Positions 37,734 to 58,871 of a DNA stretch of 58,871 nucleotides are shown here, one piece after another (the stretch's first letter is position 1; each line of letters opens with the position of its first letter). The stretch comes from Reyranella sp. (GTDB taxonomy: Bacteria > Pseudomonadota > Alphaproteobacteria > Reyranellales > Reyranellaceae), in contig JAIETA010000008.1 in the NCBI GenBank assembly GCA_019745575.1, positions 1 to 58,871 of the forward strand, read 5' to 3'. Below the pieces are notes generated by a model. That model saw nothing but the letters and a program-made list of their open reading frames with translations. It did no database searches and was not told the DNA's origin. The position numbers were made by a program, and so were the translations under genes.

Positions 37734-39032
37734 ATGGCCATCCTCGCCACCCTGGCTCTCCTGTTCGCCATCGTGTTCATGGTCTGCTGCGCGCTGTTGG
37801 CCGCCTTCATCGGCAGCCTGCTCTACATGGTTGTTCTGCACCATCGCCTGAAAGAGGCCGGGCTGCGCCGCGAGGCGTTGTTGCTGGCTACACCCTTGCC
37901 GGCCGATTCCGACCTGCCCCATGTCGTCGTGCAGATCCCGTCCTTCAACGAGGGGGCCGTCGTTCGTCGCGGCGCCGAGTCGGCGGCCGCCCTCGATTGG
38001 CCGCGCGACAAGCTTCATATCCAGCTCCTGGATGACAGCACCGATGAGACGGCCGACATGGTTCGTGCCGTGGCGACGGAACTCAGGGGCCAGGGCTTCG
38101 ACGTCGTGGCCCTGCAGCGTACCGACCGCAGCGGCTACAAGGGCGGCGCACTGCATGAGGCGATGCAGAAAACGCCCTACGACTTCTTCGCGATCTTCGA
38201 CGTCGACTATGTGCCGCCGGCCGACTTCCTGCGTGTCTGCATGCGGCCCTTCTTTGCCGAGCCCAGGACGGCTTTCGTGCAGGCCCGGTTCGACTTCCTC
38301 AATCCGCATGAGAATGCCCTGACGGAAATGCAGATGGTCACGCTCGACGCCCATCTCGGCATCGAGCAGGCGACCCGCTGCTGGGCCGGTCATCCGCTGC
38401 CCTTCAACGGCACCTGCGGCATCTGGCAGCGCGCCGCGATCGAGGCCGGCGGTGGTTGGAAAGGCGACACCGTCACCGAGGATCTCGATCTCACCTACCG
38501 CGGCTGGGTGAAAGGCTGGCGTGCCTTGTTCCTGACGAGTGTGGGCGTGCCAGGCGAGCTGCCCGCCGACACCAAGACCTGGCTGCGCCAGCAGCAGCGC
38601 TGGCAGGACGGATTCCGCCACGTCTCCTTCCGGATGTTTCCCGAGATACTGAAAAGCCGCGACATCACGCCGTCGGCCAAGGTGGCGGCCCTGCTGCATC
38701 TCTGCATGTCGCTGAACCAGCCCGTGCTGCTGGTGGGCGTGGCGTCGGGCCTCCTGGCGGGCCTATTGGCGCCGCAGCTCGTGCCGCTGCTGTTGACGCT
38801 TTTCGTCGTCACGGTGGCCTGGGTGTTGTTCTGCGCCACGACCTTCCTGCGCGCCGGCCACAATTTCATCCGGGGTGGCGCGATCCCGCCGTTGGCGTTC
38901 GGCGTCGTACTGCTGCGCTTTGCCGGCGGTCAGGTCGCCACCGTCGTCCGGTCGCTGGGCGTGCACATCAAGAAGGCGTTCAGCAAGCCCAAGCCGGTCG
39001 TGTTTGACCGCACCCCGAAGAAGGGCGCCTAG
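37734..39032 (+). CDS. BcsA-like membrane glycosyltransferase, family 2 (copy B)
   Basis: VQIPSFNEGAVVRR, LLDDSTDETADM, FDVDYVPP, EDLDLTYRGW, RQQQRWQDG. Confidence 0.87.
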   Translation: MAILATLALLFAIVFMVCCALLAAFIGSLLYMVVLHHRLKEAGLRREALLLATPLPADSDLPHVVVQIPSFNEGAVVRRGAESAAALDWPRDKLHIQLLDDSTDETADMVRAVATELRGQGFDVVALQRTDRSGYKGGALHEAMQKTPYDFFAIFDVDYVPPADFLRVCMRPFFAEPRTAFVQARFDFLNPHENALTEMQMVTLDAHLGIEQATRCWAGHPLPFNGTCGIWQRAAIEAGGGWKGDTVTEDLDLTYRGWVKGWRALFLTSVGVPGELPADTKTWLRQQQRWQDGFRHVSFRMFPEILKSRDITPSAKVAALLHLCMSLNQPVLLVGVASGLLAGLLAPQLVPLLLTLFVVTVAWVLFCATTFLRAGHNFIRGGAIPPLAFGVVLLRFAGGQVATVVRSLGVHIKKAFSKPKPVVFDRTPKKGA

Positions 39033-39991
39033 GCCAGCACACTTTCCCGCAGCAGCGGATGATGGGCGCAGCGCAGACCGCCGCCGGTGCTGATCGGACC
39101 ATCAAAGGGCAGCGGGATGACGTCGACCTTGCGCTTGCGCAGCTCTCCGATCACGCGGGCGTTGCCAGCGTCGATGATGACGCGGCCTTCCTCGAGCACC
39201 AGGCCATTGGTTGCCAGCAGGTTCGCTTCGTCCCTGGAGACGGTGACCGCATCCCAGTCCCGGAGCGACATCGGCAGGCCATCAATGAACTTTTCCGGGC
39301 ACCAGATGAGCAGACCCGGCTTGATCAACGCCAGGGCGCAGTCGAGATGGAGCACGTCCGACTTCATGGCGACGGGAATGACCCGGTAGCTATCGCCCAG
39401 CAGCGCCTGTAGCCAGTCGACGCCGGCGAGATCGGAGGCGCAGCCGGAAATGCCGACATAGATCTCGTAGCCGTTCAGCAGGGTATCGCCGCCTTCGAGG
39501 AACGGGCCGTCCACGCAAGCCGGCGAGCCCAAGGGCACGCTCGACCAGTGCGCGCCGCGCTGTTGAACGACCTGCTGAATGATCGGCCGCAGTCCATAGC
39601 GTTCGCGTTGCCGGCACTTCAGGCGGAGCGAGGCGTCGATGACGTGGTTGCCGATCACGATCATGCCGTCGCGTGGAAAAAGCTGGGCGCCTTCGCCATT
39701 GGGGGCGAGGAACGTGCGCTCGTCGCCCTTCAGGCGTTCCGGCCGGTGCACTGTGACGCCCTCGCGGGCGACCAGCTCGGCCAGCGTGTCTGCCTGGCGC
39801 TCGATGCGCATAGCCCACTCGGGATCGATATCGATCAGGCGGCGCCCTGCATGCTGCCGGCTGAATGCGTCGCTGGGCGGGATCAGCCAGCGCTGCGACG
39901 CTTCGTGGAAGACGACGAAGTCCTCGGCGGGCGAGATGCCGATGACGACTTCGCGGAGCCTGCCCCACTCGTGGTGTACGCCGAACAGCAC
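39029..39991 (-). CDS. Amidinotransferase-superfamily protein (GATM/arginine deiminase-like)
   Basis: FLEGGD, VLHLDCALALIKPGLLIW (H-x-D), GGGLRCAHHPLLR (catalytic Cys region). Confidence 0.8.
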   Translation of the reverse strand: MLFGVHHEWGRLREVVIGISPAEDFVVFHEASQRWLIPPSDAFSRQHAGRRLIDIDPEWAMRIERQADTLAELVAREGVTVHRPERLKGDERTFLAPNGEGAQLFPRDGMIVIGNHVIDASLRLKCRQRERYGLRPIIQQVVQQRGAHWSSVPLGSPACVDGPFLEGGDTLLNGYEIYVGISGCASDLAGVDWLQALLGDSYRVIPVAMKSDVLHLDCALALIKPGLLIWCPEKFIDGLPMSLRDWDAVTVSRDEANLLATNGLVLEEGRVIIDAGNARVIGELRKRKVDVIPLPFDGPISTGGGLRCAHHPLLRESVLA

Positions 39992-44402: not shown

Positions 44403-46481
44403 GTGGTCAGCGATTTGCGCATTGCCGTCGACATTGGCGGCACGTTCACGGATGTTGTTCTGGAGGAAGGCGGTCGACGGCTGACGCGCAAGCTGCTGAC
44501 GACGCCGCAACGGCCGGAGGAGGCGGTCCTCGAGGGCGTGCGCCTGATCCTGACCGATGCCGGTCGCGGCTTCAGCGACATCGCAGTGTTCGTGCATGGC
44601 ACGACTCTGGCGACCAACGCCGTGATCGAGCGCCGCGGCGCGCGTACCGCCCTGATCGCCACCGAAGGATTTCGCGACGTCCTCGATATCGCCAATGAAA
44701 GCCGCTACGACCAATACGACCTGACGATCGAGAAGCCGAAGCCGTTGGTGCCGCGGGTCCTTCGCTTCACTGTGCCGGAGCGCCTGGACGTACACGGCAA
44801 GATCCGGCTGCGGCTTGACGAGGAGGCGGTCGGCGTCGTGGCAGGCAAGCTGGCCGCCGCCGGCATCGAGAGCGTTGCCGTGGCCTTCATGCATTCCTAC
44901 GTCAATCCAGTGCACGAGCGTCGCGTCCGGGAGATTCTCAAGGTCGGACTGCCGGATCTTCGGGTCACGCTGTCGAGCGAGGTTTGCCCCGAGGTGCGCG
45001 AATACGAGCGAACGTCGACGGCGGTGGCCAACGCCTACGTGCAGCCGCTAATGGACTCCTATCTGGCCCGCATGCAGGCAGCCCTTGCGGCCGAGCGATT
45101 CGTCGGCACGATCTATCTCGTAACGTCGGGCGGCGGCCTGACCGCCATCGAGACGGCGCGGCGATTTCCCGTGCGGCTGATCGAGTCGGGTCCGGCCGGC
45201 GGCGCGATTTTTGCAGCGCAGGTGGCGGCCCGCGCCGGCGAGAAGCGGGCGTTGAGCTACGATATGGGGGGCACCACGGCCAAGATCTGCCTGATCGACG
45301 ACTTCACGCCGCATACCGCGCGACTGTTCGAGGTCGACCGCGCAGCCCGGTTCCTGAAAGGCTCCGGGTTGCCAGTGCGCATTCCGGTGATCGAGATGGT
45401 CGAGATCGGGGCAGGCGGCGGATCGATCGCCCGCCTCGACGCCCTGAAGCGCGTGACGGTGGGGCCGGAAAGCGCCGGCGCCGAGCCCGGCCCCGCCTGC
45501 TATGGCCGCGGCGGCCGCCATCCTGCTGTGACCGACGCCAATGTCGTCCTGGGCACGATCGACCCCGCCGATTTCGCCGGCGGCACCATTCCGCTCGACC
45601 TGGCCGCGGCACGGGCGGCGCTCCAGCGCGACGTCGGCGAGGGCCTCGGGCTCCCGACCGAGATGGCGGCCTATGCCGTCTACGAGATGGTATCGGAAAA
45701 CATGGCAAGCGCCGCCCGCGTGCATGCCGTCGAGCGCGGCGCCGTGGTCAACCAGTACAATCTCATCGCCTTCGGGGGCGGCGCACCGCTGCATGCCGCG
45801 CGGGTTGCCGAAAAGATCGGCGTACGGCGCGTGATCGTGCCGCCCAATGCCGGGGTGGGTTCCGCCGTGGGCTTCCTGGCGGCGCCCGTGTCCTTCGAGT
45901 TGGTGCGCAGCCGCTACATGCGGCTCGACCGGTTCGATGCGGCGTCGGCGTCGGAGCTTCTCGCCGAGATGAGCGCCGAGGCGACCGCCTTGGTGGCCCC
46001 AGGCGCCCGTGGTCAGGCGACCTTCGAGCGGCGCGTCGCTTTCATGCGCTATGTCGGCCAGGGCCACGAGATCATGGTCGTCCTGCCGCAACGGCCGCTG
46101 GTGGCGGGCGATGCCGACGCGTTGCGCGCGTCTTACGAGCGTGACTATGCTGTGCTGTTCGAACGGCACATCCCCAATGCCGCCATCGAGATCCTGAGCT
46201 GGTCGGTCCAGGTCTCGACCGAGACGCCGTTGCCGGCGCAGCAGAGCGCGGCACCGGCCACGCAGGCGCCCGTCCCATCCGGTCGCCGCCCGGTGTTCGA
46301 CGGCCGCAGCGGGCGCACGACCGATGTGCCGGTCTATCGGCGCGAGGCCCTGCCGCCGGGCAGCGCCTTTGCCGGACCGGCCATTGTGGCCGAGGCCGAG
46401 ACATCGACCTACATTTCGGCAAGTTTTACCGCGCACATCGATGCTTCCGGCTGTATCGTCATGGATCGCCGGGCAGGGTGA
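44403..46481 (+). CDS. hyuA: Hydantoinase/oxoprolinase subunit A
   Basis: RIAVDIGGTFTDVVLEEG; VHGTTLATNAVIERRGARTALIATEGFRDVL; SYDMGGTTAKICLI. Confidence 0.9.
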   Translation: MVSDLRIAVDIGGTFTDVVLEEGGRRLTRKLLTTPQRPEEAVLEGVRLILTDAGRGFSDIAVFVHGTTLATNAVIERRGARTALIATEGFRDVLDIANESRYDQYDLTIEKPKPLVPRVLRFTVPERLDVHGKIRLRLDEEAVGVVAGKLAAAGIESVAVAFMHSYVNPVHERRVREILKVGLPDLRVTLSSEVCPEVREYERTSTAVANAYVQPLMDSYLARMQAALAAERFVGTIYLVTSGGGLTAIETARRFPVRLIESGPAGGAIFAAQVAARAGEKRALSYDMGGTTAKICLIDDFTPHTARLFEVDRAARFLKGSGLPVRIPVIEMVEIGAGGGSIARLDALKRVTVGPESAGAEPGPACYGRGGRHPAVTDANVVLGTIDPADFAGGTIPLDLAAARAALQRDVGEGLGLPTEMAAYAVYEMVSENMASAARVHAVERGAVVNQYNLIAFGGGAPLHAARVAEKIGVRRVIVPPNAGVGSAVGFLAAPVSFELVRSRYMRLDRFDAASASELLAEMSAEATALVAPGARGQATFERRVAFMRYVGQGHEIMVVLPQRPLVAGDADALRASYERDYAVLFERHIPNAAIEILSWSVQVSTETPLPAQQSAAPATQAPVPSGRRPVFDGRSGRTTDVPVYRREALPPGSAFAGPAIVAEAETSTYISASFTAHIDASGCIVMDRRAG

Positions 46482-46491
46482 GGAGAGGATC

Positions 46492-48165
46492 ATGAGCCAG
46501 TCCAATAGCGTCGGGCTGATCGACCTGCAGATCATGTGGAACCGCCTGATCGCCGTGGTCGAGGAGCAAGCCCAGACCCTGATGCGCACCGCCTTCAGCC
46601 CGATCGTGCGCGAGGCCGGCGACCTCTCGGCCGGCATCTTCGACCTTCAGGGCCGCATGCTGGCCCAGGCCATCACCGGCACGCCGGGCCATGTGAATTC
46701 GATGGCCGAGTCGGTGAAGCATTTTCTCCGATACTTCCCGGTCGAGACCATGGAGCCGGGCGACGCCTACATCACCAACGACCCCTGGATGGGCACCGGC
46801 CATCTCAACGACTTCGTCATCACCACGCCCTGCTTCCGCAACGGCAAGCTGGTGGCCCTGTTCTCCTGCACAAGCCACCTCATGGACATCGGCGGCATCG
46901 GCTTCGGCCCCGATGCCACCGACGTGTTCATGGAGGGCCTGTACATCCCGATGCTGAAGCTGTTCGACCGCGGCAAGGTGAACGAGACCCTGATGGCGAT
47001 GATCCGTGCCAACACGCGGCAGCCGGTCGACACCGAGGGCGACGTCTACTCGCTCGCCGGCTGCAATGACGTCGGCGGCCGCCGCTTGGTCGAGATGATG
47101 GATGAGTTCGGCATCGACACGCTGGATCAGCTCGGCGACCACATCATCGCCCGCTCACGCGAGGCGGTGTTGGTCGAGATCGCCAAGCTGCCCAAGGGCA
47201 CCTGGCACAACACCATGACGGTGGACGGCTACGACGAGCCGGTGACTCTCAAGGCCGCGCTCACCGTTTCCGACAACGGCATCCATGTCGACTACACGGG
47301 GACCAGCGGTGTTTCGAAACGCGGCATAAACGTGCCGCACGCCTACACGACGGCCTACACCGTGTTCGGGCTGGGCTGTGTGGTGGCCACGCATATTCCC
47401 AACAATGCCGGCTCGCTCGAACCCTTGACGGTGTCGGCGCCGGCCGATGCCATCCTGAACGCGCCGAAGCCGACGGCCGTTGCCTCGCGGCACGTCATTG
47501 GTCAGATGTTGCCGGACGTCGTGTTCGGCTGCCTGCGCCAGATCATCCCCGATCGCGTGCCGGCTGAAGGCACGTCGTGCCTGTGGAACATCAACGTACG
47601 CGGCCATGTGAAGGGTGGAGAAGGCGGCAACTACGGCTTCGGCATGGCCATCACTTCCAACGGCGGCACTGGCGCCCGTCCCGACAAGGACGGGCTCTCG
47701 GCCACCGCGTATCCCAGCGGGGTGCGTGGTACGCCGGTCGAGATCGCCGAGACCCAGACGCCGCTCATCTTCTGGCGCAAGGAATTCCGCCCGGACTCAG
47801 GCGGTGCCGGCCGCTCGCGCGGGGGCCTCGGGCAGATCATGGAAATCGAAAGCGGCATAGCCGAGCCGTTCGACCTGCTCGCGGCTTTCGACCGGATCGA
47901 CCATCCGGCGCGCGGCCGCGATGGCGGTGGCAATGGCGAGGCGGGTTTCGTGGCTCTGAAGTCGGGCAAGACGCTGAAGGGCAAGGGCTTCCAGCTCATC
48001 CCGCCCGGCGACCGGCTCATCGTCATGACGCCGGGTGGTGGCGGCATAGGCGCGCCGGCCGAGCGCGAGCGCACGCAGGTGGCCAACGATCTCGCTGACG
48101 AGCTGATTTCGCCGGACAGTGCAGACAGACTTTACGCGTACAAGCCGCCGCAGGCGGCCGAGTAG
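46492..48165 (+). CDS. hyuB: Hydantoinase/oxoprolinase subunit B
   Basis: LQIMWNRLIAVVEEQAQTLMRTAFSPIVREAGDLSAGIFD; GDAYITNDPWMGTGHLNDF. Confidence 0.92.
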   Translation: MSQSNSVGLIDLQIMWNRLIAVVEEQAQTLMRTAFSPIVREAGDLSAGIFDLQGRMLAQAITGTPGHVNSMAESVKHFLRYFPVETMEPGDAYITNDPWMGTGHLNDFVITTPCFRNGKLVALFSCTSHLMDIGGIGFGPDATDVFMEGLYIPMLKLFDRGKVNETLMAMIRANTRQPVDTEGDVYSLAGCNDVGGRRLVEMMDEFGIDTLDQLGDHIIARSREAVLVEIAKLPKGTWHNTMTVDGYDEPVTLKAALTVSDNGIHVDYTGTSGVSKRGINVPHAYTTAYTVFGLGCVVATHIPNNAGSLEPLTVSAPADAILNAPKPTAVASRHVIGQMLPDVVFGCLRQIIPDRVPAEGTSCLWNINVRGHVKGGEGGNYGFGMAITSNGGTGARPDKDGLSATAYPSGVRGTPVEIAETQTPLIFWRKEFRPDSGGAGRSRGGLGQIMEIESGIAEPFDLLAAFDRIDHPARGRDGGGNGEAGFVALKSGKTLKGKGFQLIPPGDRLIVMTPGGGGIGAPAERERTQVANDLADELISPDSADRLYAYKPPQAAE

Positions 48166-48201
48166 TTCTAGCAACGGATCAACGAGCGAATGGGGGCTAT
48201 C

Positions 48202-49218
48202 ATGAGACTGGGACGCAGGACGGCCTTGAAGGCAGGCGTGGGAGCGGGCGCGGCGGCAGTGATCGGTGTGCCTTCGATGGCAGGCGCGCAGGCGCCGATG
48301 AAGCTCGATCTGGCGACTGTCTGGCCGGACGGCAACTTTCACACCAAGAACGCCAAGCAGTTCGCGGAGGAGGTTGCAAAGGCGACCAACGGCCAGGTGG
48401 TGATTACCGTGCATTCCGGCGGTTCGCTTGGCTACAAGGGGCCGGAGCAGCTGAACGCCGTGCGCGACGGCCTCGTGCCGATGGCCGATATCCTCAACAT
48501 CCAGCAGGTCGGCGATGCGCCGCTGCTGGGCATCGAGGGCGTGCCGTTCCTGGTCGGCAATCCGGAAGAGCTGAAGGTCCTGCAGAAGTACGCTCGGCCA
48601 GAGTTCGACAAGATCGCCACCAGATTCAACCAGACGATCCTCTACACCGTGCCGTGGCCGACCCAGTATCTGCACACCAAGACGAAGTCCGACACGCTGG
48701 ACGGCCTGAAGGGACTCAAGATCCGCGTGCCTGACCGGCAGGCCGGCGACATGGTGAACGCACTCGGCATGGCGGCTGTCCAGATCCCCTGGGGCGAGAC
48801 CGTGCCGGCGCTGGCGTCCGGCGCCGTGGTCGGCGTCACGACGTCGTCGGTGTCGGGCGTCGACGGCAAGTTCTGGGAATTCCTGAAATACTTCTACAAG
48901 ACCAACCATGTCTGGAGCTCGCAGATCGTTACTATCAACAACGACACCTGGAAGAAGATCTCGCCGGCCAACCAGAAGATCATCAAGGACCTCGCGGCCA
49001 AGCTCGAGCCCGAGTTCTGGAAGGTTGCAAGCGATGCTGATGCGAGCAGTGCCAAGCGCCTGACCGAGGGTGGCATGGAAATGATCGTGGTGCCGCCGGC
49101 GATGCTGAAGGAAATGCGCGAGAAGACTGTCGGCCTCGAGAAGGCCTTCATCGATCGCGCCGGCCCGACAGCCGCCGAGATCATCGCCAAGTACAAGAAG
49201 GACCTGGGGCGCAGCTGA
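48202..49218 (+). CDS. dctP: TRAP transporter substrate-binding protein (DctP) with putative Tat signal
   Basis: MRLGRRTALKAGVGAGAAAVIGVPSMAGAQA; DctP features; DctQ and DctM downstream. Confidence 0.87.
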   Translation: MRLGRRTALKAGVGAGAAAVIGVPSMAGAQAPMKLDLATVWPDGNFHTKNAKQFAEEVAKATNGQVVITVHSGGSLGYKGPEQLNAVRDGLVPMADILNIQQVGDAPLLGIEGVPFLVGNPEELKVLQKYARPEFDKIATRFNQTILYTVPWPTQYLHTKTKSDTLDGLKGLKIRVPDRQAGDMVNALGMAAVQIPWGETVPALASGAVVGVTTSSVSGVDGKFWEFLKYFYKTNHVWSSQIVTINNDTWKKISPANQKIIKDLAAKLEPEFWKVASDADASSAKRLTEGGMEMIVVPPAMLKEMREKTVGLEKAFIDRAGPTAAEIIAKYKKDLGRS

Positions 49219-49220
49219 TC

Positions 49221-49781
49221 GTGTCCCTCGCCTCGGCTCGACGCCCGCCCGATCCGATCGGGCGGGTGCTCGATGCCGTCGACAGGCTGTCCCTGTGGGG
49301 TGCATGGGCATCGGCCGCGTGCGTGGTGGCGATCCTCGGCCTCATCGTGGCCGAGGTTGCCGGCCGCAATCTGTTCAACGTCAGCCTCTATTTCGCGTGG
49401 GAATTCAGCGCCTACTTCATGGGGGCCGCCTTCATGATGGGCGCGGCCTATACGTTGCGGGCGGGGGCCCAGATCCGCGTCAACGTTCTGTTGGAGAACG
49501 TGCCAAGGCCTCTTGCGCGCGCCTTCGACCTGTTCTCGACGCTGTGCGGACTTGTCATCGGGGCGTATCTGACGTGGGCGTTGGGCGAGATGACCTGGCT
49601 GTCGTGGGTGCGCGAATCCCGGTCACCGGAGAAGAGCGAGCTGTTGCGCTGGATTGCGCAGTTCCCGCTGGCGCTCGGGTCGCTTCTGTTCACCCTTCAG
49701 GTCGCGGCCCGCATGGCGCGCCTGCTGCGCGGCGAGGCCGGCGACGATGCCAGCCTGCGCATCGGCCAGGACATCGAGTGA
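49221..49781 (+). CDS. dctQ: TRAP transporter small permease (DctQ)
   Basis: Four hydrophobic segments; AEVAGRNLFNVSLYFAWEFSAYFMGAAFMMGAAYTLRAGAQIRVNVLLE. Confidence 0.82.
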   Translation: MSLASARRPPDPIGRVLDAVDRLSLWGAWASAACVVAILGLIVAEVAGRNLFNVSLYFAWEFSAYFMGAAFMMGAAYTLRAGAQIRVNVLLENVPRPLARAFDLFSTLCGLVIGAYLTWALGEMTWLSWVRESRSPEKSELLRWIAQFPLALGSLLFTLQVAARMARLLRGEAGDDASLRIGQDIE

Positions 49782-49785
49782 GAGC

Positions 49786-51087
49786 ATGAGCGCCATCCTC
49801 ACCTGGCTGATGGTCCTGATGGTGGCGACGCTCTGCGCCGGCATCTGGATCGGCCCCGCCTTGATCGCCACGGCCGTCGTCCTGCTCGAGATGTTCACCA
49901 GCCTGCCGACGCACAAGCTGATCGGCAATTGGGCCTTTAACGTGCTGACGTCGTCGGACATCGTCTCGCTGCCACTGTTCATCCTGATGGGCGAGCTGCT
50001 GTTCCGTACTCGGCTGTCGCAGTCGCTGTTCTCCGGCATCGCCCCCTGGATGAGCTTCCTGCCCGGCCGTCTGTTCCACACCACGGTGATCGGCTGCTCG
50101 ATGTTCGCCGCCATTTCGGGCTCGTCGGCCGCAACCACGCAGGTCGTCGGCCGCATCACGCTGACCGAGCTGCTGAAGCGCGGTTACGACAAGGGCCTGG
50201 CGGTCGGCAGCCTGGCGGGCGCGGGCACGCTGGGCTTTCTCATTCCGCCGTCGATTCCGATGATCATCTATGCCGTGTTGGCCGAGGAGTCGCTGCTGCG
50301 CCTGTTCACGGCTGGCTTCCTGCCGGGGTTTGCGCTTGCCAGTTGCTTCATGGGCTATATGGCGCTTCGGGCAGTCCTGGACCCCAGGCTGGTGCCGGCC
50401 GACGACCACACGACCTGGACCTGGGGCGACCGGTTCAGGAGCCTGATCGAGTTGGGGCCGGTTGCCTTCCTGATTCTGACCGTGCTCGGCACCATGTACG
50501 CCGGTATCGCCAGCCCCTCCGAGGCCTCCGCGATCGGCGTGCTAGGGGCGATCGCGGTCGCCGCTTTTCAGAAGACACTGAACTGGAAGGGCATTCGCGG
50601 CGCCCTGCTAGGGTCTGTCCAGACGACCTGCATGATCGGCCTCATCGTGCTGGGCGCCTTCACGGTCGGCACGGTCCTGGCCAACCTGCGGGTGCCGCAG
50701 TTCGTGTCGGCGACCATAACGTCATGGCAGCTCTCGCCGTTCGTGCTGATCATGTTCCTGATGGTCTTCTACATCCTGCTCGGCACGGTGCTGGAAGGCT
50801 TCTCCATGATCGTCCTGACCTTGCCGATCGTGTTGCCGGTCGTGTTGGCGGCGGGTTTCGACAAGCTGTGGTTCGGCATCTTCCTGATCCTCACCATCGA
50901 GATGGCCCAGATCAGCCCGCCCGTGGCGTTCAATCTGTTCGTGATCCAGAACATCACCGGCGATTCGCAAACCTATGTCGCCTGGAAAGTCGTCCCATTC
51001 TTCCTGATCATGATGGTCTTCACCGCCCTCCTGACCGTCTTCCCCAGCCTGGTCACCTGGCCGGTCGATTTCATACTGTCGAGATAG
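49786..51087 (+). CDS. dctM: TRAP transporter large permease (DctM)
   Basis: LPLFILMGELLFRT; AGAGTLGFLIPPSIPMIIYAVLAEES. Confidence 0.9.
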   Translation: MSAILTWLMVLMVATLCAGIWIGPALIATAVVLLEMFTSLPTHKLIGNWAFNVLTSSDIVSLPLFILMGELLFRTRLSQSLFSGIAPWMSFLPGRLFHTTVIGCSMFAAISGSSAATTQVVGRITLTELLKRGYDKGLAVGSLAGAGTLGFLIPPSIPMIIYAVLAEESLLRLFTAGFLPGFALASCFMGYMALRAVLDPRLVPADDHTTWTWGDRFRSLIELGPVAFLILTVLGTMYAGIASPSEASAIGVLGAIAVAAFQKTLNWKGIRGALLGSVQTTCMIGLIVLGAFTVGTVLANLRVPQFVSATITSWQLSPFVLIMFLMVFYILLGTVLEGFSMIVLTLPIVLPVVLAAGFDKLWFGIFLILTIEMAQISPPVAFNLFVIQNITGDSQTYVAWKVVPFFLIMMVFTALLTVFPSLVTWPVDFILSR

Positions 51088-51135
51088 ACGGGCCTCTGAC
51101 AGACTGGGGAAAGTGGAAGTCAATCGGGGGACGGC

Positions 51136-52500
51136 ATGGATCCGCGCCAGGTCAAGACGGCGGCTGATGCCCGCAAGATCGTCAAGGAACGGGGGCTGAC
51201 CCACGTAAAAGTCGGCGTTCACGACATCGACGGCATCCTGCGCGGCAAGTACATCCACGTCGACAAGTTCCACTCCGCGCTGGATGGCGGCTTCGGCTTC
51301 TGCGACGTGGTCCTGGGCTGGGATTCCAACGACCAGCTCTACGACAACGTCGCCTATACCGGATGGCACACCGCCTATCCCGACGCCAACGTCCGCATCT
51401 TGCCGGACACCTGCCGCGAGATCGCCACCGAGCCCGGCAACCTGATGTTCCTCTGCGAGTTCGTCGGCAAGGCGGAGGAGATCTGTCCGCGGGGCGTCTT
51501 GCGGCGCGTGCTGGCGCGGGCCGCGAAGATGGGCTTCGAGGTCAAGGTCGGCTTCGAGTACGAGTTCTTCGTCTTTGCCGAGACCGCCTTCTCGATTCGC
51601 GAGAAGGGATTTCGCAACCTGAAGCCGATTTCGCCGGGCTTCTTTGGCTATTCGGTGCTGCGCAACTCGGTTCTCTCCGACTGGTACCAAGACCTGCTGG
51701 CCATGTGCGAGACCATGGATATGGGCATCGAGGGCCTGCACACGGAAACCGGCGCTGGCGTGCTCGAAGCGGCGCTGCGGGTCGGCGATGCGCTGCCGTC
51801 GGCCGATCGGGCGGCGCTGTTCAAGCTCTTCACCAAGGTGCTGGCGCAGCGACGCGACTGGCTCGCCACCTTCATGGCCAAGTGGTCGAAGGATTGGCCG
51901 GGCTGCGGCGGCCACATGCACATGTCCTTGTGGAAGGCGGGCAAGTCGGCCTTCTATGACGAGAAGGCGCCCCACCGCATGAGCGCGACGATGCGCCACT
52001 TCGTCGGTGGCCAGCAGGCGCTGATGCCGGAAATGCTGGCGATGGTCGCCTCGACTGTGAACGCCTATCGGCGGCTCATTCCGGGCTTCTGGGCGCCGAC
52101 CGACGCGACGTGGGGCGTCGAGAATAGAACCACGGCGCTCAGGGTCATCCCGGGGTCGGCCAAGTCGACCCGCGTGGAATACCGGGTCGCTGCCGCCGAC
52201 GCCAATCCCTACCTGGCGCTCGCCGCCGCGGTCGGTGCCGGCCTCTGGGGTGTCGAGAACAAGATCGATCCGGGCCAGCCGATCACCGGCAACTCGTATG
52301 CCCGCAAGCATCCGGCGAAGGCGCAGCTGCCGCGCACCCTGATGGAGGCAGCCGGCCGGCTGAAAGCATCGAAGCCGGCGCGTGGTCTGTTCGGCGATGC
52401 CTTCGTCGATCACTATTCGGCGACGCGTGAGTGGGAAGAGCGGGAGTTCCGCAAGGCCATCACGGATTGGGAACTCGAACGCTACATGGAAATCATCTGA
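51136..52500 (+). CDS. Glutamine synthetase-family gamma-glutamyl-amine ligase
   Basis: GFEYEFFVF, TETGAGVLEAAL, GCGGHMHMSLW, STRVEYRVAAADANPYLALAA; N-terminal DIDGILRGKY typical of GS-like ligases. Confidence 0.87.
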   Translation: MDPRQVKTAADARKIVKERGLTHVKVGVHDIDGILRGKYIHVDKFHSALDGGFGFCDVVLGWDSNDQLYDNVAYTGWHTAYPDANVRILPDTCREIATEPGNLMFLCEFVGKAEEICPRGVLRRVLARAAKMGFEVKVGFEYEFFVFAETAFSIREKGFRNLKPISPGFFGYSVLRNSVLSDWYQDLLAMCETMDMGIEGLHTETGAGVLEAALRVGDALPSADRAALFKLFTKVLAQRRDWLATFMAKWSKDWPGCGGHMHMSLWKAGKSAFYDEKAPHRMSATMRHFVGGQQALMPEMLAMVASTVNAYRRLIPGFWAPTDATWGVENRTTALRVIPGSAKSTRVEYRVAAADANPYLALAAAVGAGLWGVENKIDPGQPITGNSYARKHPAKAQLPRTLMEAAGRLKASKPARGLFGDAFVDHYSATREWEEREFRKAITDWELERYMEII

Positions 52501-53672
52501 TGGCTGCGTCCTCTCCGCTCACCGGCAACTGGAGCTATCCGACCTCGATCCGCTTCGGCGCCGGCCGCATCCGCGAGCTGCCGGAAGCCTGCAAGGCGGT
52601 CGGCCTGACGCGACCGCTGCTCGTGACCGATCCCGGGCTGGCGAAGCTTCCGATGATCGCCGACGCCTTGGTCTCACTGCGCAAGGCGGGCCTCGAGGTC
52701 GCGCTGTTCAGTGAGGTGAAGCCCAATCCGGTCGCCGCCAATGTCGAGGCCGGCATCCGCGTGCTGCGCGCCGGCAAGCATGACGGCGTGATCGCCTGGG
52801 GTGGCGGGTCGGGTATCGATGCCGCCAAGGCGATTGCCTTCATGGCGGGCCAGACCCGGCCGATGTGGGATTTCGAGGATATCGGCGACTGGTGGACGCG
52901 CGCCAATCCGGCCGGCATCTACCCGTCGATCGCCGTGCCGACCACGGCGGGTACCGGCTCGGAAACCGGTCGCGCGTCGGTCATCACCGACGAGAAGACG
53001 CATACCAAGAAGGTGATCTTTCATCCGAAGATGATGCCCCAGGTGGTGATCGCCGACCCGGAGCTCACGGTCGGCCTGTCGGCGAAGCTCACGGCAGGCA
53101 CCGGCATGGACGCCTTCATCCATTGCTTCGAGGCCTATTGCGCACCTGGCTATCACCCTTACGCGGAAGGCATCGCCGTCGAAGGCATGCGGCTCGTGAA
53201 GGAGAATCTGGCGCGCGCCGTGAAGGACGGCCGCGATGTCGAAGCCCGCGGCCATATGCTGGCCGCCTCGCAGATGGGTTCGACGGCCTTCCAGAAGGGC
53301 CTGGGTGCCATCCATTCGCTGTCGCATCCGGTCGGTGCGGTGCTCGATACCCATCACGGCCTCACCAATGCCGTCGCCATGCCCTACGTCGTGAAGTTCA
53401 ACCGTCCTGCGATCGAAGGGAAGGTCGTGCGCCTTGCGCGCTGGCTCGACCTTCGCAGCCCGACCTTCGACGGCTTCATGCAGTGGACGCTCGATCTTCG
53501 CCGTGAGATCGGCATCCCGCATACGCTGGCCGAGCTCGGCGTGAAGGCCGAGCATCTCGACAAGTTCGCCGAGATGGCCGCGGTCGATCCCACGGCCGGC
53601 GGCAATCCGGTGAAGGCAGGTGTTGCCGAAATGCGCAGGATGTACGAAGCCGCCTTGAGCGGGAGACTCTGA
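52500..53672 (+). CDS. Iron-containing alcohol dehydrogenase
   Basis: FGAGRIREL, GGGSGIDAAKAIAF, IAVPTTAGTGSETGRASVI, GAIHSLSHPVGAVLDTHHGLTNAVAMPYV. Confidence 0.93.
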   Translation: MAASSPLTGNWSYPTSIRFGAGRIRELPEACKAVGLTRPLLVTDPGLAKLPMIADALVSLRKAGLEVALFSEVKPNPVAANVEAGIRVLRAGKHDGVIAWGGGSGIDAAKAIAFMAGQTRPMWDFEDIGDWWTRANPAGIYPSIAVPTTAGTGSETGRASVITDEKTHTKKVIFHPKMMPQVVIADPELTVGLSAKLTAGTGMDAFIHCFEAYCAPGYHPYAEGIAVEGMRLVKENLARAVKDGRDVEARGHMLAASQMGSTAFQKGLGAIHSLSHPVGAVLDTHHGLTNAVAMPYVVKFNRPAIEGKVVRLARWLDLRSPTFDGFMQWTLDLRREIGIPHTLAELGVKAEHLDKFAEMAAVDPTAGGNPVKAGVAEMRRMYEAALSGRL

Positions 53673-53673
53673 C

Positions 53674-56139
53674 ATGACGGCCAACTTCCCCACCCAGGCG
53701 CGGGTCGTCATCATCGGCGGCGGCATCATGGGCTGTTCGACCGCCTATCATCTGGCCAAGCTCGGCTGGAAGGACGTGGTGCTGCTCGAACAGGGCCGGC
53801 TGAGCGGCGGCACGACCTGGCACGCCGCCGGACTGGTGGGCCAGTTGCGCAGCTACCAGAACCTGACGCGGCTGATCCGCTACAGCACCGACCTGTACGC
53901 GAAGCTCGAGGCCGAAACCGGACTGGCCACCGGCTGGAAACAATGCGGCTCGCTGTCGGTCGCGCGCACCGAGGAGCGCATGGTGCTGCTGCGCCGCTCC
54001 GCCGCCATGGCGAACGCCCAGGGCGTCGCCTGCGAGCCGCTGACGGCGCGGCAGGCTGGCGACAAGTATCCCATCATGCGGACCGACGATCTCGTCGGCG
54101 CGGTGTGGTTGCCGGGCGACGGCAAAGCCAATCCGGCCGACATCACCCAGGCGCTGGCCAAGGGCGCGCGCAACGGCGGTGTCCGCATTTTCGAGAAGAC
54201 GCGCGTGACGTCTATCGAGACCGAGGACGGCCCGAGTGGCCGGCGAGTCACCGGCGTTCAGACCACCGAAGGGCCCATCACGGCAGAGATCGTGGTCAAC
54301 TGCGGCGGCCAGTGGGCGCGCCAGGTCGGGCGCATGGTCGGCGTCACGGTGCCGCTCTATTCCTGCGAGCACATGTACATCGTCACCGAGAAGATGGAGG
54401 GCGTGCCGCGCGACCTGCCGGTGATGCGCGATCCCGACGGCTACATCTACTTCAAGGAGGAGGTCGGCGGCCTGCTGATGGGCGGCTTCGAGCCGGATGC
54501 CAAGCCGTGGAACAAGGACGTCATTCCCGACGATTTCGAGTTCGGTATGCTGCCGGACGACTGGGACCAGTTCCAGATCCTGATGGACAACGCCCTGATC
54601 CGGGTGCCGTCGCTGGACAAAGTCGGCATCAAGACCTTCATGAACGGCCCGGAGAGCTTTACGCCCGACCTGAACTACATCCTGGGCGAAGCGCCGGGCC
54701 TGAGGGGCTTCTTCGTGGGCGCCGGCTTCAATTCGATGGGCATCGCGAGTTCGGGCGGCGCCGGGATGGCGCTTGCCGAGTGGATCGTGGCCGGCGAGCC
54801 GACGATGGATCTCTGGCCGGTCGACATCCGCCGCTTTGCGGGCTTCCACGGCAACGATTCGTGGCTGCGGGCGCGGGTCGCCGAGACGCTGGGCCTGCAC
54901 TACAAGATGCCGTGGCCGCAGCGCGAGCACGAGAGCGGCCGGCCGTTCCGCCGCTCGCCGCTCTATGACCGGCTCAAGGCGCGCGGCGCCTGGTTCGGCA
55001 ACAAGATGGGCTGGGAGCGACCCAACTGGTTCGCCGGCACCGGCAAGACGCCCGACATGCAGTATGGCTGGGGCCGGGGCGAGTGGTTCGACCACGTCGC
55101 GGCCGAGCATCGCGCCACCCGCGAGGGCGTCACCGTCGTGGACGAGACGTCGTTCGGCAAGCTCCTGATGCAGGGGCGCGATGCCGAGAAGGTGCTGCAG
55201 CACCTATCCGCCAACGACGTCGCCGTGCCGGTCGGCCGCACCGTCTATACCGGCCTGCTGAACGACCGTGGCACCTTCGAGAGCGACCTCACCATTGCCC
55301 GGCTGGCTCGCGACAGGTTCATGATCATCACCGGGTCGGCGCAGGCCACGCGCGACGCCGACTGGATCGGCCGCCATATGCCGCCGGAGGCGCATGCCAC
55401 GCTGACCGACGTGACGTCGGGCTGGACCGTGCTGTCGGTCATGGGCCCGCGCAGCCGGGCTTTGCTGCAGAAGGTGAGCCGCGCCGACTTCTCGAACGAG
55501 GGGTTTCCGTTCGCCACCATCCGCGAGGTCGGCCTTGGCTACGCCACGGTCCTGGCCTCGCGCCGTACCTACATGGGCGAGCTTGGCTGGGAGCTCTACG
55601 TGCCTGTCGAGTTCGCGGTGACGGTGTTCGAGACCCTACATGAGGCGGGAGTCGAGTTCGGCCTGCGCGACGCCGGCTACTACGCCGTCGAAACGCTGCG
55701 CCTGGAAAAGGGCTATCGCGCCTGGGGCCGGGAGCTCACGCCCGACGACAATCCCTTCCAGGCCGGCCTCGGCTGGGCGGTGAAGCTCGACAAGCCGGGC
55801 GGCTTCATCGGCCACAAGGCGCTGATAGAGGCCAAGGCCAAGCCTCTGACGCGGCGGCTGGTGACGGTGGTGCTGGCCGACGGCGAACCGCTGCTGTGGG
55901 GCGGCGAGGCGCTGCTGCGCGACGGCAAGCCCGTCGGCGATCTCACCTCCGCCGGTTATGGCCACACGATCGGCGCATCGATCGGGATGGGCTACGCCAA
56001 ACGCGACGACGGTGCCGCCATCGATGCCGCCTGGCTCGAGGGCGGCCGCTTCGAGGTCGATCTCGCCGGCACGCGCCTTGCTGCCAAGGTGTCGCTGCGC
56101 TGCCCCTACGATCCCACGGGGGCACGCATCAAGGGTTGA
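53674..56139 (+). CDS. Dimethylglycine/sarcosine dehydrogenase-like FAD oxidoreductase fused to a GcvT domain
   Basis: VVIIGGGIMGCSTAYHLAKLGWKDVVLLEQGRLSGGTTWHAAGLVGQLR (His-FAD motif); C-terminal aminomethyltransferase domain. Confidence 0.9.
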   Translation: MTANFPTQARVVIIGGGIMGCSTAYHLAKLGWKDVVLLEQGRLSGGTTWHAAGLVGQLRSYQNLTRLIRYSTDLYAKLEAETGLATGWKQCGSLSVARTEERMVLLRRSAAMANAQGVACEPLTARQAGDKYPIMRTDDLVGAVWLPGDGKANPADITQALAKGARNGGVRIFEKTRVTSIETEDGPSGRRVTGVQTTEGPITAEIVVNCGGQWARQVGRMVGVTVPLYSCEHMYIVTEKMEGVPRDLPVMRDPDGYIYFKEEVGGLLMGGFEPDAKPWNKDVIPDDFEFGMLPDDWDQFQILMDNALIRVPSLDKVGIKTFMNGPESFTPDLNYILGEAPGLRGFFVGAGFNSMGIASSGGAGMALAEWIVAGEPTMDLWPVDIRRFAGFHGNDSWLRARVAETLGLHYKMPWPQREHESGRPFRRSPLYDRLKARGAWFGNKMGWERPNWFAGTGKTPDMQYGWGRGEWFDHVAAEHRATREGVTVVDETSFGKLLMQGRDAEKVLQHLSANDVAVPVGRTVYTGLLNDRGTFESDLTIARLARDRFMIITGSAQATRDADWIGRHMPPEAHATLTDVTSGWTVLSVMGPRSRALLQKVSRADFSNEGFPFATIREVGLGYATVLASRRTYMGELGWELYVPVEFAVTVFETLHEAGVEFGLRDAGYYAVETLRLEKGYRAWGRELTPDDNPFQAGLGWAVKLDKPGGFIGHKALIEAKAKPLTRRLVTVVLADGEPLLWGGEALLRDGKPVGDLTSAGYGHTIGASIGMGYAKRDDGAAIDAAWLEGGRFEVDLAGTRLAAKVSLRCPYDPTGARIKG

Positions 56140-57785
56140 GCCTCCTTGAGGCGCGTGTCGGCAAGCTCGCCGGCGGCCTCGAGGATGGGATAGGCGACCG
56201 ACGTCAGGTGGCCGTTGATGCGCTTGAAGTCGCGGATCACGTCCATGTGGATCGAGCTGGTCTCGATCGACTCGGCGCGTCCTTCGCGCAGGCGGGCGAA
56301 ATGGCTGTCGGCGGCCCGCGATTCGGCTTCGCGCATGGCGGTCTTCTCGGCGACCAGGCGGCGCGCCAGCGTGATGTCGCGGGTGGTGAAAACGTTGAGC
56401 GCCAGCTGCAGGTTTTCCAGCACGCGGGCGTGGAAGGCCCTGAGCTCGGCCGTGCCTTCTGGCGAGAAGGCGTAGCGGTTCCTGATCTTCTTGGCCGCGA
56501 GCTCCATCAGGTTCTTGTCGACGATGTCGCCAACGTGCTCGAGGTTGGTCGTGAAGGTCAGGATCTCGACGTAGCGCTTGCCGTCCTCTTCACCCAGTTC
56601 GTTGCGCGAGGTCTGGATGAGGTAGAGCTTGATCGCCTCGTAGAGTCTGTCGACCGCGTCGTCGGCGGCTTCGATCGCCTTCACCGCCTTGGGATCGTTG
56701 CGCTCGAAGACGTCCATCGTCTTGCGCAGCATGTCGGCCACGCGGTCGCCGAGGTTCAGTGTTTCGCGCAGCGCGCAGCCCAGCGCCTCGGCGGGGCTGT
56801 CCAGGACGTTGGGATCGAGGTGGCGGGGCTTGCCGGGATCGTCCAGCCGCGGCTTGGCGGGCAACAGGCGCACGCAGAGGGCGGCGACCACGTCGGTCAG
56901 CGGCAGGAAGACGATGGCGACAGCGAGGTTGAAGGCGGTGTGGAAGTTGACGGCGAGGCGCGTCGCCGACGGGTCGAGGATCGTCAAGACCTGCAGCACG
57001 GGCTCGAGGAACGGCAGGACAGCGATGGCCATCAGCCCGCGGGTGATCAGGTTGGCCAGAGGCACGCGCCGCGCCTCGACCTCGGCGCCGGCCTGAGCCA
57101 TGTAGGGCGCCAGCGCGCCGCCGACGTTGGCGCCGATCACCAGGGCCAAGGCCAGCTTGGGCTCGACGATCCCGCCGCCGGCGAACGACATGACCAGCAG
57201 CACGACCGACAGACTGGAATGGACGAACCAGGTGGCGAGCGTCGCCAGGATGACCGCGATGACGTACTCGTTCTGGAGACCCTGCAGCGCGGCCATGAAG
57301 GAGGGCGAGGCGCGCAGCGGCTCGGTGGCATGGCCCAGCAGCTTGAGCGACAGCAGCATCAGGCCGAGGCCGATGGCGACCCGGCCGAGGTGGCGCGACC
57401 TGTCCTGCTCGCTCGACAGGAAGGCGATAACGCCGGCGCCGATCAGCAGCGGCGACACCCAAGCAAGATCGAACGACAGGACCTGGGCGGCGATTGTGGT
57501 GCCGACGTCGGCGCCCAGCATGACGGCGAGGGCGATCGACAGCGGAATGAGGCCGCGGCCGGCGAAGGAGGAGAGCAGCAGCGCCGTGGCGGTGCTCGAC
57601 TGCAACAGCCCGGTAACGGCAAGGCCGCCGGCGAAGGCGGTGAACCGGTTGCGCGAGCAGGCGGCGATGGCGCGGCGCAGCGTGGCACCGAAGGCACGCG
57701 TCAGGCCGGTGCGGACCATGCGCACGCCCCAGAGCAGTAAGGCCACGCTGCCCAGAACGTTCAGGATCGTCTCGACGCCCTGCAT
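56106..57785 (-). CDS. Na/Pi cotransporter family protein with PhoU-like C-terminus
   Basis: GLLQSSTATALLLSSFAGRGLIPLSIALAVMLGADVGTTIAAQVLSF; PhoU-like helical C-terminus. Confidence 0.9.
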   Translation of the reverse strand: MQGVETILNVLGSVALLLWGVRMVRTGLTRAFGATLRRAIAACSRNRFTAFAGGLAVTGLLQSSTATALLLSSFAGRGLIPLSIALAVMLGADVGTTIAAQVLSFDLAWVSPLLIGAGVIAFLSSEQDRSRHLGRVAIGLGLMLLSLKLLGHATEPLRASPSFMAALQGLQNEYVIAVILATLATWFVHSSLSVVLLVMSFAGGGIVEPKLALALVIGANVGGALAPYMAQAGAEVEARRVPLANLITRGLMAIAVLPFLEPVLQVLTILDPSATRLAVNFHTAFNLAVAIVFLPLTDVVAALCVRLLPAKPRLDDPGKPRHLDPNVLDSPAEALGCALRETLNLGDRVADMLRKTMDVFERNDPKAVKAIEAADDAVDRLYEAIKLYLIQTSRNELGEEDGKRYVEILTFTTNLEHVGDIVDKNLMELAAKKIRNRYAFSPEGTAELRAFHARVLENLQLALNVFTTRDITLARRLVAEKTAMREAESRAADSHFARLREGRAESIETSSIHMDVIRDFKRINGHLTSVAYPILEAAGELADTRLKEAQPLMRAPVGS

Positions 57786-57840: not shown

Positions 57841-58707
57841 TTACGATGCCAGGTGCGTTGCCTCTTCCATGAAGGCGCGAACCAGCGCGACGCGGCGGCG
57901 CTCCTGCAGGCAAAGGGCATACTCCGCCACCGCGAGATCGCTGTCGGCCACGGCGATGTGGCGAAAGCGGCGATCCTCGCCAAGCTCGCTGGCGAAGACG
58001 GCACCGACGCCGAAGCCCGCGGCCACCGCCTCACGCACGCCCTCGCGGGTCTGCACCTCGACGATGGAACCCGGCCGCACATCGGCCGCGGCCATGGCCT
58101 GTTCCAGCACCTCGCGTGTGATCGAGCCGCGCTCGCGCAGCACCAGTTCCTGGCCGTTGAGGGCGGCGAGTGGAGCACGGCCGCGCTTGGCGAGCGGATG
58201 GCGAGCCGGCGCAAAAAGCACCACCCGGTCGGTGCGCAGCCGCACGGCATGCAGGCGGGGGTCCGACACGCTCTTGGCCATCACCGCGACGTCGGCCTCG
58301 TGGCGCAGCAGGCGTTCCAGCACGACGGCGGAGTTGTCGATCGACAGCGCGAAAGTAAGACCGCCGGCGCGCTTCCGGAGCGCCGCCATGATCGGCACCA
58401 CGTGGTGGGCCGAGTCGGCGGCGATCCGGAGATGGCCGCGGGTCAGGGCCTGCTCGCCGGCCAGCAGGGCGCGTGCCTCCTCCTGCAGGGCAAAGAGCCG
58501 GGTCGTGACGCCGTGCAGCTGCCGGCCGGTTTCGGTCGGGGTGACGCTGCGGCCGCGGCGGTCGAACAGGTGTACGCCATAGGCCTTCTCCAGGGCCGTC
58601 ACCTGGCCCGACAGGTTGGGCTGGCTGAGGCCCGAGGCGCGGGCGGCGGCGGAGAAGGAGCCCGATTCGGCCACGAGATGGAAGGCGCGGAGCTGGGTGG
58701 GCGTCAT
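57841..58707 (-). CDS. LysR-family transcriptional regulator
   Basis: MTPTQLRAFHLVAESGSFSAAARASGLSQPNLSGQVTALEKAYGVHLFDRRGRSVTPTETGRQL wHTH; divergent from a phnW-like gene. Confidence 0.92.
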   Translation of the reverse strand: MTPTQLRAFHLVAESGSFSAAARASGLSQPNLSGQVTALEKAYGVHLFDRRGRSVTPTETGRQLHGVTTRLFALQEEARALLAGEQALTRGHLRIAADSAHHVVPIMAALRKRAGGLTFALSIDNSAVVLERLLRHEADVAVMAKSVSDPRLHAVRLRTDRVVLFAPARHPLAKRGRAPLAALNGQELVLRERGSITREVLEQAMAAADVRPGSIVEVQTREGVREAVAAGFGVGAVFASELGEDRRFRHIAVADSDLAVAEYALCLQERRRVALVRAFMEEATHLAS

Positions 58708-58780: not shown

Positions 58781-58871
58781 ATGACCACCAAGAAGCCTGC
58801 CGCCTCCGAAACCGGTGATCCGCTGCTGCTGACGCCGGGTCCGCTCACCACCTCGGCCAGCGTGAAGCAGG
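58781..58871 (+). CDS. phnW: N-terminus of 2-aminoethylphosphonate:pyruvate aminotransferase (truncated by window end)
   Basis: MTTKKPAASETGDPLLLTPGPLTTSASVKQ; LLLTPGPLTTS..VK is the PhnW N-terminal motif. Confidence 0.75.
   Translation, partial: MTTKKPAASETGDPLLLTPGPLTTSASVKQ

Follow-up and report, generated by a model that had tools for sequence, protein, structure and literature searches.

Methylated forms of 2-aminoethylphosphonate (AEP) are common natural phosphonates, and the route known for trimethyl-AEP is oxygenase cleavage by TmpAB. N-methyl-AEP is known to be oxidised directly to phosphonoacetaldehyde by PbfB, PbfC and PbfD, of which the latter two carry non-covalent FAD, with methylamine and phosphonoacetaldehyde as products (PMC10590968). 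Ethanolamine can be degraded by gamma-glutamylation, a route made up of EtoXVW, ETAGA, GAADDH, GETADH and GGAH and described in Chromohalobacter, Agrobacterium and Phaeobacter, with ethanolamine bound by the C. salexigens receptor homologue (PMC10132767); a parallel in Streptomyces involves GlnA4 with an SDR, an ALDH and an amidotransferase (PMC6529630). In the superfamily that includes caprolactamase, N-methylhydantoinase and 5-oxoprolinase, the ATP-site and metal-ligand residues have been defined for CapAB (PMC8453981). Among TRAP receptors, two Bordetella DctP structures have been solved with pyroglutamate bound (PMC5812351).

An operon joined to an AEP locus

The window, a stretch of 58,871 nucleotides from a Reyranella genome (contig C362 of a 4.9 Mb assembly in 364 contigs, 90.7% complete), carries eight tightly spaced genes on the + strand at 44403-56139. 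In order these encode HyuA, HyuB, the TRAP components DctP, DctQ and DctM, a glutamine synthetase-like (GS-like) ligase, an Fe-ADH and a flavoenzyme with a GcvT domain, DMGDH1, separated by 10, 36, 2, 4, 48, -1 and 1 bp. The cluster had been picked out by a sequence-only reading, and Pfam confirms that it is real. Gene order is kept in most Reyranella loci with sufficient flank and is therefore not a product of chance. The closest named records of the GS protein, 88-94% identical, come from Reyranella MAGs. Scans for promoters, terminators, repeats and RNA families yielded nothing informative. Upstream of the operon, at 39029-39991 on the - strand, lies a gene with weak likeness to arginine deiminase/dimethylargininase.

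These eight genes make up the left arm of a longer locus for AEP (PhnW-PhnY-PhnA), which runs beyond the cluster first described. Downstream in the window come, on the - strand, a Na/Pi cotransporter with a PhoU domain (56106-57785), the same neighbour as in the AEP loci of S. meliloti and Aminobacter, and a LysR regulator of the AEP-catabolism type (57841-58707; TIGR03339, E 8e-84, 281 bits, under the cut-off of 341). The 5' end of phnW (AEP-pyruvate transaminase; 58784-58871, + strand) begins 88 bases before the window end, which cuts it after about 29 codons. Contig C274, whose end shares exactly 25 bp with that of the window, supplies the remainder of PhnW, then PhnA and PhnY, so that all three are present in the two contigs combined. 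Relatives continue past DMGDH1 in the same way, with the Na/Pi cotransporter, an AEP-type LysR, and then PhnW, PhnA and PhnY. This layout is found in several genera of the host family, whose core reads GS-(ALDH)-FeADH-DMGDH1, (Na/Pi), LysR, PhnW-A-Y; in several family genomes a convergent second DMGDH (DMGDH2), a partner gene and an AEP ABC transporter come next. On Sinorhizobium meliloti pSymB, which bears a hydrolytic PhnW-PhnY-PhnA pathway, and on an Aminobacter plasmid, a 66%-identical DMGDH1 homologue stands in one stretch with LysR, the Na/Pi cotransporter, PhnW, PhnA and PhnY. Unlike the pSymB locus, that of Reyranella is joined to an ethanolamine module and HyuAB-TRAP, and its MAG lacks the AEP receptor.

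Further genes accompany these loci. On C274 the AEP permease is adjoined by a SolA-like FAD oxidase (378 aa) and by a methyltransferase similar to sarcosine/dimethylglycine N-methyltransferase (L109:586-2531); the oxidase also adjoins HyuAB-TRAP in L216. Between PhnY and DMGDH2 (L109:5637-12919) are two PEP-mutase/isocitrate-lyase-like genes, a TctC receptor, an FMO-like gene and an FAA-hydrolase-like gene. A class III aminotransferase, possibly PbfA-like, recurs in AEP loci (L070:8654-9940, L131, L058).

What would such an operon do? Gene content, synteny, continuation onto a second contig and clade-level co-occurrence were observed directly, and all substrates named below we infer. The reading favoured here, which seems reasonably likely, is that this left arm scavenges amino head groups, with the ligase and Fe-ADH acting on ethanolamine, DMGDH1 acting as an N-demethylase, and HyuAB-TRAP as an added module.

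The ligase and Fe-ADH pair

The GS-like ligase (51136-52500; PF00120, Gln-synt_C) and the Fe-ADH (52500-53672; PF00465) occupy 51136-53672 with a 1-bp overlap, and Fe-ADH is the neighbour of GS in most loci. The window GS is 73% identical to that of locus L075, where it is flanked by a 4uab-type ethanolamine TRAP receptor, an ALDH, an Fe-ADH and a GATase. The L075 receptor matches 4uab, which we take to be the C. salexigens receptor with ethanolamine bound, at E 2e-145. The usual triad in the 39 GS loci whose 10-kb flanks are complete is GS, ALDH and Fe-ADH, and some GS loci also carry a class-I glutamine amidotransferase, a 4uab-matching TRAP receptor or an ethanolamine-permease-type gene (called by TIGR00908 at scores just under its cut-off). 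In the 24 HyuA-negative loci with full flanks, ALDH is present in 22, the permease-type gene in 7, GATase in 6 and an EtoX-type receptor in 4. The sequence-only reading had suggested that the two enzymes gamma-glutamylate and oxidise an amino alcohol, and this is supported: they probably belong to the published gamma-glutamylethanolamide route, as an ethanolamine gamma-glutamylase (ETAGA) and a gamma-glutamylethanolamide dehydrogenase. The ligase would join glutamate to ethanolamine and the Fe-ADH would oxidise gamma-glutamylethanolamide, leaving an ALDH and a hydrolase to complete the route.

The usual genes for these last two steps, ALDH (GAADDH) and GATase (GGAH), are missing from this locus, and the MAG holds no close copy of either, its best matches being 32-33% and 31% identical, respectively. 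With both orthologues absent, the ethanolamine route is incomplete as annotated in this MAG. The window shares with the Eto/ETAGA route an orthologous-looking ligase and adjoining Fe-ADH, and relatives share ALDH, GATase and EtoX as well, whereas the window itself has none of these three, and its ligase and Fe-ADH are embedded among AEP genes together with DMGDH1 and HyuAB-TRAP. A methylamine ligase is a less likely identity for the GS-like protein, because ALDH, Fe-ADH and transporters for ethanolamine are the partners of its relatives, and 9qur, a methylamine ligase of solved structure, gives a far lower score. Identity to PDB entries was uninformative on specificity, since 5dm3 and 11zs are the top matches of the window GS and of its L075 counterpart alike, with modest scores that differ little.

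Candidate substrates of DMGDH1

DMGDH1 (53674-56139, + strand; DAO+FAO_M+GCV_T+GCV_T_C) has the domain order, the covalent-FAD His and the GcvT Asp of DMGDH, DMGO and 4-methylaminobutyrate oxidase, and differs from them in its phosphonate/ethanolamine genomic context. In alignment His50 (covalent FAD), His233, Tyr259 and Asp538 are conserved, the last at a position that is Asp in 1pj5 and is changed to Ala in the DMGO entry 3gsi. Because these key residues do not separate DMGDH1 from other DMGDHs, a substrate can be assigned to it from context only. A tree built from 93 related sequences unites the DMGDH1 genes linked to AEP or GS, that of the window included, in one clade (SH-aLRT 99 for 20 rows, 93 for 24), with the exception of L058, which falls outside; the DMGDH2 paralogue of AEP loci is placed elsewhere. 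Members from separate families have AEP genes as neighbours. PhnA is present in 12 of the 13 genomes that carry the clade against 49/387 overall (p 5e-11), and outside the host family in 7/8 carriers against 31/112 other DMGDH-bearing genomes (p 0.001), these p values being only partly corrected for relatedness and genome size.

From this context DMGDH1 is probably a folate-linked demethylase of N-methyl-AEP or of N-methylethanolamine. Using covalent FAD, it would oxidise the N-methyl group of either or both and pass the carbon to tetrahydrofolate, so that PhnW would receive AEP or the ligase ethanolamine. A literature search found no paper linking a DMGDH to AEP. Like PbfB/C/D (PMC10590968), DMGDH1 is a PF01266 flavoenzyme of AEP clusters with a role in broadening substrate range; by architecture and description it differs in its GcvT fusion and its conserved WH motif for covalent FAD. 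It would be Pbf-like in role, and its architecture argues against membership of PbfB/C/D.

The methylated substrate could be N-methylethanolamine, as some DMGDH1 relatives stand beside ethanolamine genes only. Taken further, this becomes a reading in which DMGDH1 acts on choline-derived N-methylated ethanolamines and not on phosphonates. It would then produce ethanolamine for gamma-glutamylation, with the AEP genes as mere neighbours serving a related diet. DMGDH1 directly follows Fe-ADH in the window and in L129, L130 and L082, where no PhnW is nearby, and GS and PhnA co-occur broadly (32/64 GS-bearing genomes have PhnA). However, the DMGDH1 orthologues of Sinorhizobium, Aminobacter, G096 and G375 have AEP genes as neighbours but no GS in the stretch examined, and G316 and G441, where it lies by GS only, have PhnA elsewhere in the genome. 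We consider activity on N-methylated ethanolamines alone possible, if somewhat unlikely.

The partner of DMGDH2 in the longer AEP loci bears on methylated substrates as well. It encodes a Rieske oxygenase with kinship to the monooxygenase of glycine betaine (GbcA; NF058607, 341 bits, under the cut-off of 670), and it adjoins DMGDH2 in every locus examined (e.g. L125:8278-9555, L196-L205). The gene occurs in 9/387 genomes of the class, of which 8 have PhnA (p 3e-7, with relatedness and genome size only partly corrected) and 4 have the DMGDH1 clade. In Reyranellaceae and in G252 (L196) the neighbour of the pair is the AEP receptor; elsewhere it lies by unrelated genes, sometimes with a GcvA-type LysR, so that glycine betaine may also be a substrate. 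The constant pairing, its position beside the AEP transporter in some loci and the presence of PhnA in most Rieske-bearing genomes nonetheless suggest that trimethyl-AEP is N-demethylated step by step, as betaine is, and that ethanolamine from the same membrane-lipid diet is used alongside it, an idea that must stay tentative and for which no description was found in a literature search. The Rieske monooxygenase would take the first methyl group, DMGDH2 the second and DMGDH1 the third, the two flavoenzymes passing methyl carbon to tetrahydrofolate and AEP going to PhnW-PhnY-PhnA. In this MAG only the last step would remain, because it has no Rieske gene and little of DMGDH2: a junction on C274 (L109:4942-4949) with 8-bp microhomology lacks about 4.7 kb relative to L205. 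Gone with this segment are the whole of the Rieske gene and of the AEP receptor, two thirds of DMGDH2 from its start, and half of the AEP ATPase. The receptor was not found elsewhere in the MAG, and the AEP ABC transporter is thus not intact. The junction is possibly a real deletion, possibly a misassembly.

It is unlikely that DMGDH1 is an ordinary dimethylglycine/sarcosine dehydrogenase of betaine breakdown that is here by chance. Among structures it matches mammalian DMGDH (E 5e-150) and the DMGO of Arthrobacter best, and its key catalytic residues are identical to those of other DMGDHs, but it belongs to a separate, well-supported clade with repeated AEP linkage and fourteen clade-fixed positions, for example Lys151 in place of Gln, at which other sequences differ. 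That the enzyme oxidises some N-methyl amine, as proposed in the sequence-only reading, is plausible; a sarcosine route is unsupported, the clade tracking phosphonate genes instead.

The HyuAB-TRAP module and the diet of the locus

HyuA (44403-46481, + strand; PF05378/PF01968/PF19278) and HyuB (46492-48165, + strand; PF02538) are the alpha and beta subunits of an enzyme of the ATP-dependent cyclic-amide hydrolase superfamily. The nearest structures to HyuA, at low identity, are 7hk5 (called N-methylhydantoinase), closest by score at E 8e-115, and the caprolactamase 6yra. As in CapAB, N-methylhydantoinase and 5-oxoprolinase there are two subunits with ATP and metal sites kept: in alignments HyuA retains the CapA residues Asp11 and Asp295, and HyuB the CapB metal ligands. 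HyuAB differs from these enzymes in its low identity, its TRAP partner and a Lys, within the motif DMGGTTAK, at the position of CapA Asp302, a conserved Asp near the substrate that 7hk5 also has. The motif is common to all retrieved HyuA homologues above 54% identity, one of which reads DVGGTTAK; remoter paralogues (such as L001, L002 and L208) have Asp at the Lys position. Scores against the NCBIfam caprolactamase equivalog stay under its cut-off (480 and 206 bits against 1000).

The accompanying transporter consists of DctP (48202-49218; PF03480), the small permease DctQ (49221-49781; PF04290) and the large permease DctM (49786-51087; PF06808, TIGR00786), all on the + strand. HyuAB and its TRAP form a portable module of their own, inserted upstream of GS, since HyuAB-DctPQM is found without GS in L215 and L216, while L226, L229 and L230 have it with diverged copies of the TRAP genes. 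Across Reyranella genomes two diverged TRAP versions (DctP ~65%, DctQ ~35% and DctM ~56% identical) share one slot, the window having one at 48202-51087 and L016, L031 and L120 the other. G023 has no HyuAB upstream of GS; there, another HyuAB pair directly follows the AEP ABC transporter (L208:13374-17223).

The neighbourhoods of HyuAB in 20 relatives gave no clue to its substrate. The window DctP does not look like the ethanolamine-receptor type, as 4uab is not among the best 60 of its 95 PDB matches. Nearest are 2pfy and 2pfz (E 1e-35 and 3e-34, ~30% identity), presumably the two Bordetella pyroglutamate receptors. Because the nearest solved relatives bind pyroglutamate, 5-oxoproline is the best guess for the substrate, for which ~30% identity offers a lead only. 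The module would then import a carboxylated cyclic amide and open it at the expense of ATP, in the case of 5-oxoproline supplying the glutamate.

A related and rather doubtful possibility is that HyuAB, as an ATP-dependent 5-oxoprolinase, closes a small gamma-glutamyl cycle in place of the missing amidotransferase, a cyclotransferase splitting the gamma-glutamyl product to 5-oxoproline and HyuAB returning glutamate. The likeness of DctP to pyroglutamate receptors fits, as does gene content, with GATase in 0/23 and ALDH in 2/23 HyuA-positive loci against ALDH in 22/24 HyuA-negative ones. However, the HyuA-positive loci are nearly all from one genus and this scarcity may be a single evolutionary event, no cyclotransferase was seen, and the TRAP importer suggests a substrate from outside. 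A route through N-methylpyrrolidone or another N-methyl-lactam, with HyuAB followed by a 4-methylaminobutyrate-oxidase-like enzyme, was dropped because HyuAB and DMGDH1 are separable: each, HyuAB with its TRAP, is found without the other in relatives. Small-carboxylate uptake, as the sequence-only reading had it, stays plausible, but its central proposal, that HyuAB opens N-methylhydantoin to N-carbamoylsarcosine and a DMGDH-like enzyme oxidises the sarcosine, is very improbable, for all that 7hk5 heads the HyuA matches and the operon includes such an enzyme, given the low identity, the lost Asp, the absence of an amidase from the locus, the separable modules and the phosphonate-linked DMGDH clade.

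Under the favoured reading of head-group scavenging, AEP and ethanolamine are likely the membrane-lipid head groups that this locus uses as food, and the proposed folate-linked N-demethylation step looks new. If true, methylated AEPs would have a third route beside PbfB-D and TmpAB, in which a demethylase linked to folate supplies PhnW, and their methyl carbon would enter one-carbon metabolism. A clade of DMGDHs would gain a function, and its member on pSymB of Sinorhizobium meliloti would offer a tractable model. With ethanolamine use encoded in the same locus, the real diet would seem to be membrane head groups.
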